Positions 18,716-27,570 of a stretch of DNA of 37,437 nucleotides are shown piece after piece. Below the pieces are notes generated by a model, which ran no database searches, had not been told where the DNA came from, and saw nothing but the letters and a program-made list of their open reading frames with translations. The position numbers and the translations under genes were made by a program. The stretch covers positions 1 to 37,437 of the IMG/VR virus record IMGVR_UViG_3300048927_000735; one strand, written 5' to 3'. The DNA is from a virus. How positions within the stretch are numbered: position 1 is the stretch's first letter; each line of letters begins with the position of its first letter.

Positions 18716-20013
18716 TAGGCGAATTCCGATGCGAAGTTGAGGCGGACCGGCTTACCCGGCGTGTGCTTGTCTGAAACGTGGTCCACCGCCATCAGCCCGA
18801 AGGCGTCCGCGGCATGGCTGGCCCAGTCGTGGTTCGGGCCGAAGCCAATGTTCCGTTGGTCGTCGCGCTTCTCGTGATACCAGCCCAGCGCATCGCGCCC
18901 AGGCTCGGTGGGCTTCTCGTTGAACCAGATGGCCGGGAACAACCGACGGGCGGCCTCGATGCGGTTCATCGCAGCGCCTGCGCCCATATTCGGGATCACC
19001 CGCACGTCGAACCCAGCAGCCTTCAGGGCCGACTCGTAGCTGACCTTGAACACCTTGTCGTGGTTGGCGCCGTCATGCGGTAGAACGCACTGGGCACGCT
19101 CGTATCCCGAGGACCTCAGCCAGTTCACGTGAACGGCCAGCTCTTGGCCGATTGCCTCGTAGTAGTCCAACACCCGCACTACCTGGCCGACGAACTGCAC
19201 GATCCAGATAGCGCAGGCGTCAGCCTTGGCGCCGGTCCCGCCGATATCCCAATAGGCCCGCACAGTCATCAGCGGGTCGATGCTCAGATCACCGATGCGT
19301 CCTGCCCGCTTGGCGTCTGCCAAGGCCTTGGCGTAGTACGCACCGCTGATCGCCGTCTTGAAACCGCCTTCCCAGATGTGCTCATAGCTGTCCGGGCGCT
19401 TCTCCTCGTCCTCCAGCCGCTTGCGGTTGAGGGAGTCAGGGAAGAACGGGTTGTCACGCCAGTTGAGCTCAACGATCTTGCTGCCTGCCGGAGCCGACTC
19501 GCGGAATCGCTTGTGGGTGGCGCTGGCCTTCCGCTCGGGATTCCACGTCACCCAAATCTCAGAGCCTTCCTCACGCACCGTGGGGATGGCCTTCTCCCAG
19601 GCTGTCTCGCTGACGTTCTCGGCCTCATCGACCCAGAGCAGCAGGATGCGGGCCTTGGACTTGATGCTGTCCAGGTTCCGGCGCAGGCCGATGAAGGCGA
19701 ACTCAACCCTTCGGTCCACAGTGCGGATGTATTCCTCGCCGATATCGAAGTGAGGCGCCAGCCAAGGCTGCGAAAGGATCGCCCCTTTGATCTCGGCCAT
19801 GGATGAGTCAGCCAGCGAGTTCATGAACTCTCGGCCGCCTACCACCACGCCAGACCGGCCCTCTTGGGCCCACATGTGCGCTCGAACAGCCACCATCAAT
19901 GCGAAGCTTCGGGTCTTTGCTGAACCACGACCACCATAAGCTCCGCGGTAATCAGCCTCTCCCGTGAAAACCGGGATCAGCTTCGGCGGTAGCTCAATCT
20001 GGACGGTCGTCAT
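18715..20013 (-). CDS. Terminase large subunit, 432 aa
   Basis: ATPase-nuclease motor of DNA packaging. From ATG 20013: Walker A at residues 27 to 34 (GGRGSAKT), Walker B at about 124 to 130 (LLLWVDE, D129/E130), coupling motif VTWNPER, and a C-terminal RNase-H-like nuclease (RAYWDIGGTGAKADACAIWIV, LPHDGANHDK, and a late DAFGLMAVD). It belongs to the PBSX/P22-like terminase_6 group; headful packaging is likely given the P22-like head set but is not shown. It overlaps the small-subunit gene by 20 bases. An alternative ATG three codons upstream (20022) cannot be excluded, because neither start has a strong ribosome site. Confidence 0.93.
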   Translation of the reverse strand: MTTVQIELPPKLIPVFTGEADYRGAYGGRGSAKTRSFALMVAVRAHMWAQEGRSGVVVGGREFMNSLADSSMAEIKGAILSQPWLAPHFDIGEEYIRTVDRRVEFAFIGLRRNLDSIKSKARILLLWVDEAENVSETAWEKAIPTVREEGSEIWVTWNPERKASATHKRFRESAPAGSKIVELNWRDNPFFPDSLNRKRLEDEEKRPDSYEHIWEGGFKTAISGAYYAKALADAKRAGRIGDLSIDPLMTVRAYWDIGGTGAKADACAIWIVQFVGQVVRVLDYYEAIGQELAVHVNWLRSSGYERAQCVLPHDGANHDKVFKVSYESALKAAGFDVRVIPNMGAGAAMNRIEAARRLFPAIWFNEKPTEPGRDALGWYHEKRDDQRNIGFGPNHDWASHAADAFGLMAVDHVSDKHTPGKPVRLNFASEFA

Positions 20014-23605: not shown

Positions 23606-23946
23606 GCGGCCTCCAGCGTTATTTCCAGGCGCGGATTGGCCCGGTCCAACCCAGCGCGGCGGATGCTCAGCTCCACGATCTGGCTGTCGTCCTCGTAGAC
23701 GCCTGCGTGGGCCAGCGCGTCAAGGGGGGCCTTCAGCAGGTTGTCCACGTCCCGGCGGCGGTTGTCCGGCACCCACGCCTCGATGCGGACGGCCACCTGA
23801 GCGTGGCCGAACCGCTCGGCAGCAACCGCCGCGGCGACGGCCCGCACCCGGTAGTCGCGGCCATGGGCAGAGATCAGCATCCGCCCCCGGAAGGTTCGCC
23901 AGTAGGTGTTGACCGAGGGCGGCCAAGGGAGGATGAGCAGGCTCAT
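23602..23946 (-). CDS. rusA: RusA-like Holliday junction resolvase, 114 aa
   Basis: N-terminal LPWPPSVNTYWR is the RusA start. The active-site block PDNRRRDVDNLLKAPLDAL (D66, D68, K72) is followed by GVYEDDSQI (D86/D87), matching the essential aspartates and lysine of E. coli RusA. The 114-residue length is standard (RusA 120). It cuts four-way DNA junctions symmetrically as a dimer, resolving recombination intermediates or branched concatemers before packaging. It is placed in the nin-like region next to NinB and a DUF1364-type protein, a usual lambdoid arrangement. Confidence 0.93.
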   Translation of the reverse strand: MSLLILPWPPSVNTYWRTFRGRMLISAHGRDYRVRAVAAAVAAERFGHAQVAVRIEAWVPDNRRRDVDNLLKAPLDALAHAGVYEDDSQIVELSIRRAGLDRANPRLEITLEAA

Positions 23947-24251
23947 GCCGCCACCCTGATCAGCCCCAGCTGCCAGAGCTGCAGCATCGTGCGCTCGTGG
24001 GCGCGCTGCCAGATGTCGGCCTTTTCTTCGCGGGTGAAGCGGCGGCCTTGGTCGAGCTCACGGTGGCAACTGCGGCACCCTGATGCGAAGAAGCAGTCAT
24101 GGGCCTTGAGCGCCCCGCCTTTCCCGTGGCGGCTCTGGTTGCTGTGCGCGGGCTCGCCCGGGCCACCCTCGCAGATTCCATCGATCTGGAGGGTGCAGTC
24201 GAGCTGGTACGCGAGGTCCAGCAGGCTGCGGTCGCGGTAGTTGTTGTGCAT
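23943..24251 (-). CDS. DUF1364-type putative nuclease/zinc protein, 102 aa
   Basis: Start ATG 24251 (TGATG with the NinB stop); longer in-frame readings are NinB antiframe shadows. The pattern LDLAYQLDCTLQIDGICEGG, AHSNQSRHGKGGALK, then AHDCFFASGCRSCHRELDQG, ending HERTMLQLWQLGLI is that of DUF1364 (a lambdoid nin-region HNH-like family): Cys and His residues in GxxxC and CxxCH contexts likely bind zinc. HNH-type DNA cleavage is plausible but not shown. RusA next door overlaps its stop by 4 bases. Function in recombination or degradation is inferred from the nin position. Confidence 0.82.
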   Translation of the reverse strand: MHNNYRDRSLLDLAYQLDCTLQIDGICEGGPGEPAHSNQSRHGKGGALKAHDCFFASGCRSCHRELDQGRRFTREEKADIWQRAHERTMLQLWQLGLIRVAA

Positions 24252-24727
24252 CACGCAGCCCTCCGCACCGGCCCGAAGTCGGCCATCTCGTCCTGCGCAC
24301 GGGCGGACCACTTCACGCCCTTCTCGGCGCCGAAGGCGTGCACGAACTCCAGCAGCTCGCCCATCTTCCGGCGGCTGTACTGGCTGGTCCGGGCGCCGAG
24401 CATTACCGTGCCGCCGCCGATGCCCTGGGCCTGCTTCGTCTCCTGCTCGAACGCCGCGGTCAGAACTGCCTTCCAGCTGTCGCTGTCCATCAGGCCGATC
24501 TTCCACTCGCCGCCCTTGGTGTGCGGCCACTCGACCTGCCGGGCAATGTCGGCGAGGGTCGCCCACATGCAGGCGTTCGAGTCGAGCGTGCGCTTCGGCT
24601 CCCGGACCTCGACATCGAAGTCCTCACCGTCCAGCACGCGGCGGCGAATCTCGGCCACTGCTCCGTCGATCACCAGCGGCAAGCGGGGGTTGCCGAGGCG
24701 GGCGGCGAATAGGCGCTTGTCGGTCAT
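24251..24727 (-). CDS. ninB: NinB-like recombination protein, 158 aa
   Basis: Contains the NinB pattern: DGEDFDVEVREPKRTLDSNACMWATLADIARQVEW, TKGGEWKIGLMDSDSWKAVLTAAFEQE, GGTVMLGARTSQYSRRKMGELLEFVHAFGAEKGVKWSAR. NinB (Orf) of lambda is a 146-residue dimer that assists RecA or Red-type recombination by binding single-stranded DNA and SSB, replacing RecFOR functions. It begins with MTDKRLF after a ribosome site. Its stop overlaps the following DUF1364 gene start; its start overlaps the previous 104-residue gene end by 4 bases. Together with RusA it forms a recombination block. Confidence 0.9.
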   Translation of the reverse strand: MTDKRLFAARLGNPRLPLVIDGAVAEIRRRVLDGEDFDVEVREPKRTLDSNACMWATLADIARQVEWPHTKGGEWKIGLMDSDSWKAVLTAAFEQETKQAQGIGGGTVMLGARTSQYSRRKMGELLEFVHAFGAEKGVKWSARAQDEMADFGPVRRAA

Positions 24728-25038: not shown

Positions 25039-25193
25039 GCCCTCTCCCTCTTGATCTCGCTGTCTCGTTCGTCCCCGATCCACGTTCGGATGAACCACGC
25101 AACGTTGCGCCGGGCCATGTGCACTGCTGCGGCGATCTCGTCCACGCTGCAGCGCTCGGCGTGCAATAGCCGGATTGCGGATGCCTTGGTCAT
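25035..25193 (-). CDS. Small helix-turn-helix protein, 52 aa
   Basis: ATG 25193 (ATGA with the DnaC-like stop). MTKASAIRLLHAERCSVDEI and AAAVHMARRNVAWFIRTWIG form a single HTH, typical of a regulator or adapter that binds DNA: the second helix pair VDEIAAAVHMARRNVAWFIR fits recognition-helix spacing. A longer in-frame ATG lies in the upstream gene. The tail RDSEIKRERA is charged. Regulatory target unknown. It may act on the nearby nin genes or the replication genes. Confidence 0.68.
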   Translation of the reverse strand: MTKASAIRLLHAERCSVDEIAAAVHMARRNVAWFIRTWIGDERDSEIKRERA

Positions 25194-26005
25194 TTCGCAC
25201 CCCGGTGGCTCTGCCAGTCGAAGGCGAGGACGGAGCCGCACTCGCGGTAGCGATCCATGACGCGCTGGCCCAAGAACTGCTCCAGGTCCTCTACGGTCAG
25301 GTTCGAGATCAGGATCGTGGGCTGCATCTGCTGGTAGCGCTCGTTGAGCACTTCGAACATCAGCAGCTTCTCGTGGTCGCTGCCGACCTGGACGCCCACC
25401 TCATCAAGGATCAGAAGGTCGGGAGCGGCGAAGGCGTCAATGGCGGACTGCTCGGAACGCTCACTGCCCTTGCGGTAGGTCTCTTTGATGGACCGCAGCA
25501 TGGCCGAGACGGTCATGAACAGGCAGGACGACAGCGAGGACGCCATGACGGCCGATCCGATGGCGCAGGCCAGATGGGTTTTGCCGGTTCCAGGCGCGCC
25601 CGTCATGACCAGCGAGGCGCCCCCTGGCAGCTTCTCCGGCCACTTCTCGGCGTAGGTCCGGCAGACCGCCAGCGCGATCTTCTGGCCCTGCTGGGTGGCG
25701 CGGTATCCGTCGAAGGTACGGTCGGAAAAGCGCGCCGGGATACCGGAACGGTTGAACAGCCCCGCAACCCGGCTCTGCCGCTCGCGTGCCGCTGCCTCAG
25801 CCTTGCGGGCTTCCTCCTTGGCTCTCGTCTCGGCCGAACAGGTCGGGCAGCTCATCACCAGCGGCCGGCCGCCGAACTGCGTCATGTCCACCACCTTGGC
25901 CTTGTACGGCCCGTGCTCACCGCAGACCGCGTCAACCGTCGGCAGCGGCTGCTCGGGCTGCGTCTCGGAGGTCGGGCGGGAGGTCATCGATTGCTGTGCC
26001 TGCAT
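25190..26005 (-). CDS. DnaC-like helicase loader ATPase, 271 aa
   Basis: From ATG 26005 (AGGA eight bases upstream; a second ATG at 25987 is possible). Residues 28 to 56 hold a likely zinc site (C28, H31, then C53 and C56). The AAA+ core has Walker A GAPGTGKT at 136 to 143 and Walker B LLILDE at 197 to 202, a sensor I region ILISNL and an arginine motif QRVMDRYRE. It resembles DnaC/IstB and lambda-like replication P substitutes: it would load the host replicative helicase onto the origin opened by the initiator encoded just upstream. The zinc-bearing N-terminus probably contacts the helicase. It overlaps the initiator gene by 74 bases. Confidence 0.88.
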   Translation of the reverse strand: MQAQQSMTSRPTSETQPEQPLPTVDAVCGEHGPYKAKVVDMTQFGGRPLVMSCPTCSAETRAKEEARKAEAAARERQSRVAGLFNRSGIPARFSDRTFDGYRATQQGQKIALAVCRTYAEKWPEKLPGGASLVMTGAPGTGKTHLACAIGSAVMASSLSSCLFMTVSAMLRSIKETYRKGSERSEQSAIDAFAAPDLLILDEVGVQVGSDHEKLLMFEVLNERYQQMQPTILISNLTVEDLEQFLGQRVMDRYRECGSVLAFDWQSHRGAK

Positions 26006-26717
26006 AGGTCTTTCCTCGGAAGTCGGCGGATGCGGATGGGCGGATCGGGATCACGGACGCGGTTCTCGGCGGCCCTCCCGGTGGCGCGTACAGCCCTCGC
26101 CAGCCACGGAGGATTGCGTTCTCGATCACGTCCTTCGGGTCGAAGCCCTGGCCGCGCAGCTTGTCCAGCTCGCGTATCGACAGCTCGACGGCCTTCTCGG
26201 TCATCGGGGTCTTGCCCTTGCGGCGGTAATCGGACCAATCGGCCCAGGCCGCCGGTTCCAACCAATCGGGGAGCGCCGACGCAGTCGCGCGCTTATTGGT
26301 GGTTGCTCTTATGGTTCTTGATGGTTCTTGATGGTTAGAGTCCGCCTCGCGGACGGGCCCGGTTCGGGAGGCGGACGGGTCCGGTTCGCCTGCCGGACGG
26401 GTATGGATCGGCATGCGGACCGGTTCGCCAGACGGACGGGTTTGCGAGGCGGACGGGTTTTGGAACGATTGGGGGGTGACCGTGTAGGTCGTGTGGCGCC
26501 CGTTGTCACGGTTAGCAGTGACCGCCTTGGAGTCTTCAAGCCACTTGATCGCCGCGATGACAGCCGTCTTCCCGAAGCAGGTGTACTCGCTGATCTTGGG
26601 GATCGACGGGAAGCACTCGCCATGGTCGTTGGCATACCCAGCCATGCACATGAGCACCGCCTTAGCAGTCGGCGGCATCTTGAGCGGGGCACAGGCGTTG
26701 GCGACGAGGTTGGACAT
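25932..26717 (-). CDS. Replication initiator, lambda O-like, with winged-helix domain, 261 aa
   Basis: The N-terminal 85 residues (APLKMPPTAKAVLMCMAGYANDHGECFPSIPKISEYTCFGKTAVIAAIKWLEDSKAV) are the winged-helix DNA-binding domain used by phage O-type initiators and replication regulators. A low-complexity linker (about 90 to 135) is encoded over the iterons at 26351..26457. The C-terminal part (ALPDWLEPAAWADWSDYRRKGKTPMTEKAVELSIRELDKLRGQGFDPKDVIENAILRGWRGLY) resembles the O/DnaT-like segment that interacts with helicase or loader. It should bind the iterons inside its own gene and recruit the DnaC-like ATPase encoded next. It overlaps that gene by 74 bases. Confidence 0.85.
   Translation of the reverse strand: MSNLVANACAPLKMPPTAKAVLMCMAGYANDHGECFPSIPKISEYTCFGKTAVIAAIKWLEDSKAVTANRDNGRHTTYTVTPQSFQNPSASQTRPSGEPVRMPIHTRPAGEPDPSASRTGPVREADSNHQEPSRTIRATTNKRATASALPDWLEPAAWADWSDYRRKGKTPMTEKAVELSIRELDKLRGQGFDPKDVIENAILRGWRGLYAPPGGPPRTASVIPIRPSASADFRGKTYAGTAIDDLPPDLRDAARAAAADG
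26311..26457. repeat. Iteron ladder and tandem repeat: probable replication origin inside the initiator gene
   Basis: Six copies of the core GGACGGG (fourth copy GGACCGG) begin at 26351, 26373, 26395, 26417, 26434 and 26451; the spacings are 22, 22, 22, 17 and 17 bases. Neither spacing is a multiple of three, so the repeats are kept at DNA level and not as protein repeats. Immediately downstream in the direction of the gene is a 10-base tandem, ATGGTTCTTG twice plus a partial third copy (26311..26336), leading into an AT-richer stretch to about 26290. Iterons within O followed by an AT-rich segment is the lambda origin layout. Confidence 0.75.
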
Positions 26718-27345: not shown

Positions 27346-27534
27346 TCAGGCGGCCTTCTTGCGGCGGAAGAGTTCAGGACGGCGTGCTTTGAGCTCCCAT
27401 TGCCGGGAGTCAGGAATCGGCTCGTCGTCGGGCCAGTGGAAGACGGCCCCGCGGCTAACGCCGAAGAACCGTGCAAGTTCGGCATCGGAATCGAAGCCGA
27501 GCAGCCTTTTGACGCTGGTCTTTGACATGTCCAT
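27346..27534 (-). CDS. cro: Cro-like repressor, 62 aa
   Basis: From ATG 27534 (alternative ATG 27528). KTSVKRLLGFDSDAELARFF, GVSRGAVFHWPDDEPIPDSR and QWELKARRPELF form a small HTH matching the P22-Cro type ('.L...g...a.Ak.lgvs..aVs.W....iP..r..el..r.P.l'). It is divergent to cI across a three-operator region. It represses cI and, at higher level, its own promoter, favouring lytic growth. Neither start codon has a Shine-Dalgarno match, and the promoter -10 box ends only 9 bases before the first ATG, so the mRNA may be leaderless. Confidence 0.85.
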   Translation of the reverse strand: MDMSKTSVKRLLGFDSDAELARFFGVSRGAVFHWPDDEPIPDSRQWELKARRPELFRRKKAA

Positions 27535-27542
27535 AGAAGTGC

Positions 27543-27570
27543 AGTCTAGCGCTCTAGACTTCGAAGTCAA
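27543..27570 (-). promoter_or_regulatory. Leftward early promoter (cro promoter, PR-like)
   Basis: Minus strand -35 TTGACT (27565..27570) and -10 TAGACT (27543..27548), spacer 16. The strongest operator (27544..27559) covers the -10 region. Start of transcription is expected near 27536, almost at the cro start codon. It has the same -35, -10 and spacer length as the rightward promoter at 28977..29004. Confidence 0.8.

Follow-up and report, generated by a model that had tools for sequence, protein, structure and literature searches.

Origins of replication that lie inside phage initiator genes are already known, and unwinding elements are usually treated as replicon-specific AT-rich tracts. 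In lambda ori, the origin is inside the initiator gene, tandem dyad iterons occupy the linker segment, and an A-rich, easily melted stretch lies on the 3' side. Binding to A/T-rich single strands has been reported for the O proteins of lambda and Stx phages (PMC7466680). In the iteron plasmids RK2 and F, with initiators TrfA and RepE, iterons are found beside the repeats of the unwinding element (DUE), one strand of which is bound sequence-specifically by the initiator (PMC4081077, PMC10797057). DUE repeats differ between plasmids, the RK2 13-mer consensus being TAAACnTTnTTTT (PMC4081077); in one paper the RK2 repeats are given as GGTT (PMC10316083), the complement of AACC. Vibrio cholerae ori2 also has iterons beside its DUE, which contains six regularly spaced 5'-ATCA repeats that are bound single-stranded by RctB (PMC11711613, PMC10316083). 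In bacterial oriC, the repeats of the short DnaA-trio motif lie near the final initiator box ahead of the DUE (PMC10797057). A chromosomal origin of phage descent is the run-off replication origin of Bartonella, where gene 4 has been described as O-type and similar to that of lambda, with palindromic repeats and a dip in GC, and where amplification of the region peaks in vivo (PMC3610622). No locus among those examined here was identified as Bartonella.

The window, the whole stretch of DNA that was analysed, is an entire virus record of 37,437 bases. A segment within it is very likely (probability about 0.82) a phage origin of replication inside the gene of its own initiator, with private iterons and a shared unwinding ladder that the initiator would open. 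Confidence in the origin and in the shared ladder rests mainly on the conservation of the ladder; binding, melting, strand capture and loading are inferred, and there are no replication data. The features, in window coordinates, are as follows.

25932..26717, minus strand: O-like replication initiator gene, 261 aa
26463..26717, minus strand: segment coding residues 1-85, the helix-turn-helix domain, whose N-terminal similarity co-varies with the iterons in 65 loci
26440..26454, minus strand: iteron 1 (distal), GTTTGCGAGGCGGAC on the plus strand
26423..26437, minus strand: iteron 2, GTTCGCCAGACGGAC on the plus strand, 17 bp from iteron 1
26406..26420, minus strand: iteron 3, with the GGACCGG core variant, GATCGGCATGCGGAC on the plus strand, 17 bp from iteron 2
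26384..26398, minus strand: iteron 4, GTTCGCCTGCCGGAC on the plus strand, 22 bp from iteron 3
26362..26376, minus strand: iteron 5, GTTCGGGAGGCGGAC on the plus strand, 22 bp from iteron 4
26340..26354, minus strand: iteron 6 (proximal), GTCCGCCTCGCGGAC on the plus strand, centre 26347
26329..26336, minus strand: ladder unit 1, AACCATCA
26319..26326, minus strand: ladder unit 2, AACCATCA, 10 bp on from unit 1
26309..26316, minus strand: ladder unit 3, AACCATAA, 10 bp on from unit 2
26297..26304, minus strand: ladder unit 4, AACCACCA, 12 bp on from unit 3
26292..26332, no strand: least stable 40-bp stretch of the gene in a nearest-neighbour profile, overlapping the ladder; inferred DNA unwinding element
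25190..26005, minus strand: DnaC-like helicase loader, 271 aa (phrog_50, E 9e-76; IstB_IS21, E 1.4e-21)

The initiator matches phrog_678 (replication initiation O-like, E 2.3e-27) and HTH_36, the latter being its sole Pfam match at E <= 0.01. Its N-terminus is a winged helix (HTH_36, residues 14-62) and its C-terminal helices are residues 155-204, a domain for which no Pfam family match was obtained. The linker, encoded by the iterons and the ladder, is Pro/Ser/Arg-rich and of low confidence in the AlphaFold2 model of the 261-residue protein, which has a mean pLDDT of 80. Comparison of this model with PDB folds returned generic winged helices as the best matches, none at E <= 0.001. Searches of PDB sequences gave one match with the single protein (E 0.95) and seven at E <= 1 with an alignment profile, the best being 2vn2 (0.027, a chromosome replication initiation protein, which we take to be DnaD); all of these fall on the winged helix or are without clear meaning. 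The gene for the DnaC-like loader overlaps the 3' end of the initiator gene.

An initiator/loader phage replication module can be recognized by an initiator gene followed by a helicase loader gene, by tandem iterons within the initiator gene, and by an easily melted region beside the iterons on the 3' side of the gene; each is present in the window, and a fourth mark, iteron binding by the initiator with replication starting there, is inferred. The lambda O family has other marks, the PF04492 Phage_rep_O domain and a P-type loader downstream, and neither is met. Because both are missing, the origin is filed as an HTH_36 initiator/DnaC-loader module with the origin in the initiator gene, lambda-like in layout only. 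Lambda differs in that its O protein carries PF04492 in place of HTH_36, a P protein stands where the window has a DnaC-like loader, and its four annotated iterons start 20, 24 and 23 bp apart; the AACCRTCA ladder is absent from it. The original prediction had placed its repeat cores in the linker of an O-like initiator gene and likened the locus to lambda ori with distinct iterons. The first of these claims held (HTH_36, phrog_678, a DnaC-like loader next to it), and the second held for the layout, with iterons in the linker and the melting stretch on the 3' side of the gene.

The core GGACGGG occurs at 26351, 26373, 26395, 26434 and 26451, and the variant GGACCGG at 26417. Six GGACGGG cores had been claimed, which is correct for five; the claimed spacing of 22, 22, 22, 17 and 17 bp is exact. 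The cores overlap the right arms, CGGAC in each case, of six imperfect dyads of 15 bp, whose left arms are GTCCG, GTTCG, GATCG or GTTTG. In gene order the iterons are spaced 17, 17, 22, 22 and 22 bp. Chance was assessed by shuffling synonymous codons with the protein kept. Counting of 7-mers is merely suggestive, since 58 of 2000 shuffles reach five copies. The largest family of 15-mers alike at 11 or more of 15 positions has eight members, a size reached in none of 300 shuffles (maximum 7); at 12 or more positions it has five members, also reached in none of 300 (maximum 4), and at 10 or more it is not unusual (25 of 300). The decisive evidence for the iterons of the window is their conservation in relatives, over any shuffle statistics.

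A single viral relative, L003, was found with the whole protein (58% identity), L008 being the same contig. Its iterons are spaced 17, 17, 22, 22 and 22 bp in gene order, as in the window. In a gene on a contig of [Pseudomonas] boreopolis (L004, 45% identity) the iteron is another one, GTGCA...CGCAC, and yet the spacings are 17, 17, 21, 22 and 22 bp. Among the spacings of 30 bp or less in 78 scored loci, 83 are 16-18 bp and 154 are 20-24 bp; rarer values are 19 bp (one), 14 bp (four), 25-27 bp (nine) and 30 bp (three). Both the 16-18 and the 20-24 bp classes occur in 36 of these loci, and the short spacings are all distal, on the 5' side of the gene, in 35 of them, the exception being L020. 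This count is automatic and keeps near-duplicates. In 40 cluster representatives the short spacings are distal in 17 of the 18 that have both pitches, and in a hand-compiled list without cluster mates 24 of 25 have the same order. The change of pitch, which had been noted for the window, is a recurrent design in this origin class, with 17-bp steps giving way to 22-bp steps, and its presence beside the ladder provides a second testable feature.

The ladder itself contains an exact tandem of ATGGTTCTTG at 26311-26330. This tandem had been reported beside the iterons, and it held; that it belongs to the most widely shared part of the locus had been missed. The coding strand of the ladder reads AACCATCAAG AACCATCAAG AACCATAAGAGC AACCACCA. 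The class proposed here comprises HTH_36 initiator origins in which two or more AACCRTCA-like units follow one another at 10-13 bp on the coding strand, beside iterons, and the window meets it with four units between 26336 and 26297 next to its iterons. As in RK2 and F, iterons lie beside repeats of the unwinding region; unlike the iteron plasmids, one ladder is common to initiators with different iterons. The arrangement resembles the DnaA-trio in that short repeats are close to the last initiator site, but the trio consists of three-base repeats read by the AAA+ protein DnaA, whereas here units of 10-12 bases lie beside a winged-helix initiator. The ladder unit AACC(A/G)TCA ends in (A/G)TCA, and its likeness to the ATCA repeats read by RctB may be chance. 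After the ladder comes GCGCGC, at 26287-26292; GCGCG-rich runs were seen by eye, uncounted, after the ladder in a number of relatives.

An 18-mer of the ladder, AACCATCAAGAACCATCA, matches 62 stretches of the viral collection. It lies in ORFs with an HTH_36-type profile in 55 of them; four (L026, L032, L033 and L044) are fragments without the N-terminus, and three (L010, L022 and L041) are something else and not initiators. The 62 loci form 37 clusters at 50% identity, three being non-initiators. In a family scan of 63 proteins (the window, L004 and 61 of the 62 loci), 58 match phrog_270 and 55 match HTH_36. The iteron arrays upstream of the 18-mer have quite different sequences between loci. 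The 18-mer is read in frames 0, 1 and 2 in 33, 22 and 4 of 59 loci, respectively. The 79 loci that bear a ladder have two to five AACCRTCA-like units each, spaced by 10 (106 cases), 11 (31), 12 (16), 9 (3) or 13 (3) bp; the ladder finder itself fixes what counts as a unit and the permitted range of 9-13 bp. More than one frame is used in 78 of these 79 ladders. All three frames are used for the same DNA in relatives, and therefore the ladder is conserved as DNA and not as peptide. The original prediction had inferred repetition of DNA rather than protein from spacings not divisible by three; the conclusion holds beyond that argument.

Outside the query 18-mer, 115 units were compared, and in these AACC and the final A are almost always kept. 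These units were picked by similarity, so that their conservation is partly by construction, and the counts for register, spacing, co-variation of iterons and domains, frame and stability likewise come from ladder-selected sets. The ladder persists while the initiators diverge to about 20% identity.

A sample collected by protein comprised 55 loci, or 40 after removal of near-duplicates, and took in 17 of 68 phage records from the similarity search. Its queries (the window protein, the N-termini of L025 and L056, and profile A2) are themselves ladder-bearing. On the coding strand, a pair of units at two or fewer mismatches is present in 22 of the 40 loci, compared with none of 40 on the opposite strand, none of 40 read backwards and 1 of 800 codon-shuffled controls. 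Two of the sampled loci (a Microcystis phage and PHB09) came via the ladder DNA search; without them the count is 20 of 38. At one or fewer mismatches the corresponding numbers in the same 40 loci are 19, 0, 0 and 0, and at three or fewer they are 28, 1, 3 and 18 of 800. No unit pair at two or fewer mismatches was found in 18 of the 40, some of which are HTH_36 initiators, namely those of Aggregatibacter S1249 and Pam5, and L104 and L108 have no ladder on either strand.

A relaxed pattern (AACCRTCA, two bases, AACCRTCA) matches at least 119 stretches, and 101 of these are new. Of the new loci, 69 are in HTH_36-type ORFs in the coding orientation and none in the opposite one; 9 have too little upstream sequence and 23 are in other places. 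The reversed pattern, used as a control, matches 78 stretches, none of them in an HTH_36-type ORF. It is very likely, on strong support, that the ladder is a conserved DNA element of this origin class. When plasmids were searched for the ladder DNA, two matches came up, both weak (E 1 and 5), and the exact 18-mer occurs in none of 398 genomes of the phylum of G001. No description of an AACCRTCA ladder was found in the open-access literature searched, most subscription papers being outside that search; one literature match to the ladder word is a PCR primer.

Several variants were seen along the way. L212, one of the 23 loci in other places, has iteron-like repeats alongside. Several loci in the range L088-L101 have a degenerate form of the ladder after their iterons, e.g., AACCAGTCA and then AACCT about 13 bp on; several of L088-L101 we take to be enteric prophages, probably. 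In the Pseudanabaena phage Pam5 (L141, 701-1303), AACC units 12-13 bp apart with another suffix (AACCGGGAAAAG) are at the ladder position. In L074 (3001-3313) the initiator frame ends at 104 codons while iterons and ladder run on, possibly an assembly frameshift.

The ladder has a preferred distance from the iterons. In the window, the centre of iteron 6 (26347) is 11 bp from the first ladder base (26336). When dyad symmetry was aligned on the first unit in the 40 representatives, the peak was at 11.0 bp (0.55); the null from single-base shuffling has a mean of 0.244, giving z 10.9, and the highest of its 200 maxima is 0.375. Secondary peaks, at 33.0 bp (0.367) and 21.5-22 bp (0.36), fit 22-bp steps and are below the highest null maximum. 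The best or tied dyad centre is at 11.0 bp in 20 of the 40; the others scatter over 12.5, 14-14.5, 16-17.5 (for example L009, L019, L039 and L040) and 23.5 bp (for example L055). The 11-bp register is present in the window and in half of the representatives, and it is typical of the class rather than defining.

An AT-richer stretch had been predicted next to the iterons; the 40 bp of lowest stability in the gene, at 26292, take in the tandem. At -51.1, they rank second when the separated minima of 40 bp in the window are compared (rank fraction 0.0007). With 60-bp windows the stretch is less extreme (rank fraction 0.0066) and outside the ten listed minima, and other stretches of the window melt as easily. 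In 59 of 71 loci, the ladder overlaps the 40 bp of lowest stability in the gene. On the coding strand, A makes up 40% and C 29% of the 50 nt that run from the first unit. GC skew had been proposed as a check; its cumulative minimum is at 25937, at the 3' end of the initiator gene and about 0.4 kb from the origin segment, which fits an origin but may reflect transcription or gene direction. The prediction of a phage origin is thus supported from sequence, with origin function and protein binding still inferred.

In 65 loci, iteron similarity follows similarity of the N-terminal part (Spearman 0.41, a value that none of 500 permutations reached), whereas it does not follow that of the C-terminal part (Spearman 0.04, p 0.19). 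Because of this, the iterons are most likely the targets of the helix-turn-helix domain, although there are no binding data. The N- and C-terminal similarities are hardly correlated with each other (0.09, p 0.06). The window shares its iteron type with L003/L008, with 72% identity in the N-terminal part and 46% in the C-terminal part. L004 combines an L008-like C-terminal part (75% identity) with another iteron type, and L024 has the iteron type of L004 with a C-terminal part nearer that of the window (52%). C-terminal parts have been exchanged around the ladder, and the ladder persists through the exchange. L003 3001-3792 and window 25932-26717 have in common the N-terminal domain, the iterons, the ladder and a tail of about 35 residues; they differ in what lies between the ladder and this tail, which looks like the exchange of one internal domain.

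A tie between ladder and loader type was considered and rejected. From downstream of the 18-mer loci, 103 ORFs were chosen mechanically; they include eight DnaC-like loaders (phrog_50), four P-like loaders (phrog_109), DnaB-like helicases (five of phrog_19 and two of phrog_243) and five primase/helicases (phrog_239), and no single loader explains the ladder.

A tie to the C-terminal domain was also rejected. Rac YdaU (residues 132-219) and the protein of Klebsiella 6 LV-2017 (112-243) align with the window protein only in the C-terminal part, and the 673R7 protein aligns over residues 30-219; these three have no HTH_36 match and no clear ladder. The best unit pair in Klebsiella 6 LV-2017 has three mismatches (shuffle p 0.045). 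PF04492 is found in lambda O and in the Klebsiella 6 LV-2017 protein, and no Pfam match in Rac YdaU or the 673R7 protein. The HTH_36 proteins of Aggregatibacter S1249 and Pam5 also have no clear ladder. In this small comparison the ladder is found only with HTH_36-type initiators, though not with all of them, and for this reason a conserved surface of the HTH_36 domain is inferred as the first candidate for its reader. The reader is unidentified. A host replication protein is less likely, and a host factor as reader, for example in DciA hosts, is only an idea.

Opening of the origin might proceed in four steps, all inferred. First, the 261-residue protein, probably as dimers, would bind the six 15-bp dyads, with the N-terminal winged helix making the contact. 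Of the steps between them, the three proximal ones of 22 bp, each about two turns, would put sites on nearly one face beside the opening site, and the distal 17-bp steps would add a second, differently phased cluster. Second, this complex would strain the DNA from one turn off the last dyad centre, and the AACCRTCA ladder would melt there. Third, one strand of the ladder would be bound in a sequence-dependent manner by a factor common to these phages, most likely the conserved HTH_36 surface and less likely a host replication protein. Fourth, the DnaC-like loader would put host DnaB at the opened ladder.

A bolder reading is that AACCRTCA is a shared, sequence-specific docking code for single strands in phage origins. 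Many HTH_36 families would keep private double-strand iterons and yet would all open and pass on the same ladder of 10-12-base units, since one conserved partner would read it, either a fixed HTH_36 surface or a conserved protein of the host replisome. This is an inference, and the balance tips slightly against it. If it were true, who may fire the origin (the iterons) would be separate from how it is opened (the ladder), and initiator modules could be swapped between phages without loss of the opening site. The ladder hardly changes across loci in which iterons, initiator domains and adjacent loaders vary, which makes it a sequence marker for phage origins. With it one can also test directly if unwinding elements are recognized, as single-strand sequence, by initiators or host proteins, a point on which the opening of origins is still unresolved.

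The rival explanation that survives best is an ordinary lambda-type origin where the ladder is an easily melted tract that no protein reads, its similarity being due to descent and low stability. This remains possible. In its favour, the ladder overlaps the region where the gene is least stable in 59 of 71 loci, and replacement of the AT-rich tract in lambda and Stx phages leaves binding of O to the iterons unaffected (PMC7466680). Against it, AACC and the final A are kept in the 115 units (partly by construction), the ladder is strand-specific and persists at about 20% protein identity, and a need for low stability would not by itself keep the CC in AACC.

The ladder could instead be a recombination joint, a conserved linker for swapping the N-terminal domain and iterons against the C-terminal domain. 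The reassortment of modules around it in the window, L003/L008, L004 and L024 and the poor correlation of the two protein parts (0.09, p 0.06) speak for this. It is unlikely as the explanation, however, since a joint needs no tandem units of 10-12 bp, no preferred distance from a dyad and no lowest stability. The joint and origin roles may coexist.

A third possibility, an RNA-level element of the initiator mRNA (a site for translation, antitermination or a small RNA) with no part in replication, is very unlikely. Confinement of the ladder to the coding strand in HTH_36-type ORFs (69 against 0) favours it, but an asymmetric origin equally predicts strand specificity, and the ladder has a register relative to the iteron dyads and coincides with the melting minimum.

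Low-complexity repeats of a protein linker without DNA function, suggested by the Pro/Ser/Arg-rich, low-confidence linker and the weak significance of 7-mer counts (58 of 2000), are all but excluded and were rejected on the frame evidence, since every step of 17, 22 or 10 shifts the frame, two or more frames are used within 78 of 79 ladders, and all three frames occur between loci.

Beyond the origin and its two genes, a few other features of the window were noted. An HNH endonuclease (phrog_131, E 4e-27) is encoded at 23943-24566, downstream of the replication genes. A small transcriptional regulator (phrog_409, E 2e-7), with a weak P22_Cro match under Pfam's cut-off, lies upstream of them at 27346-27570. 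A stretch of the terminase large subunit, at 19436-19838, is 75-79% identical in DNA to the Pseudomonas phages PP9W, vB_Pae_BR153a and phi297.
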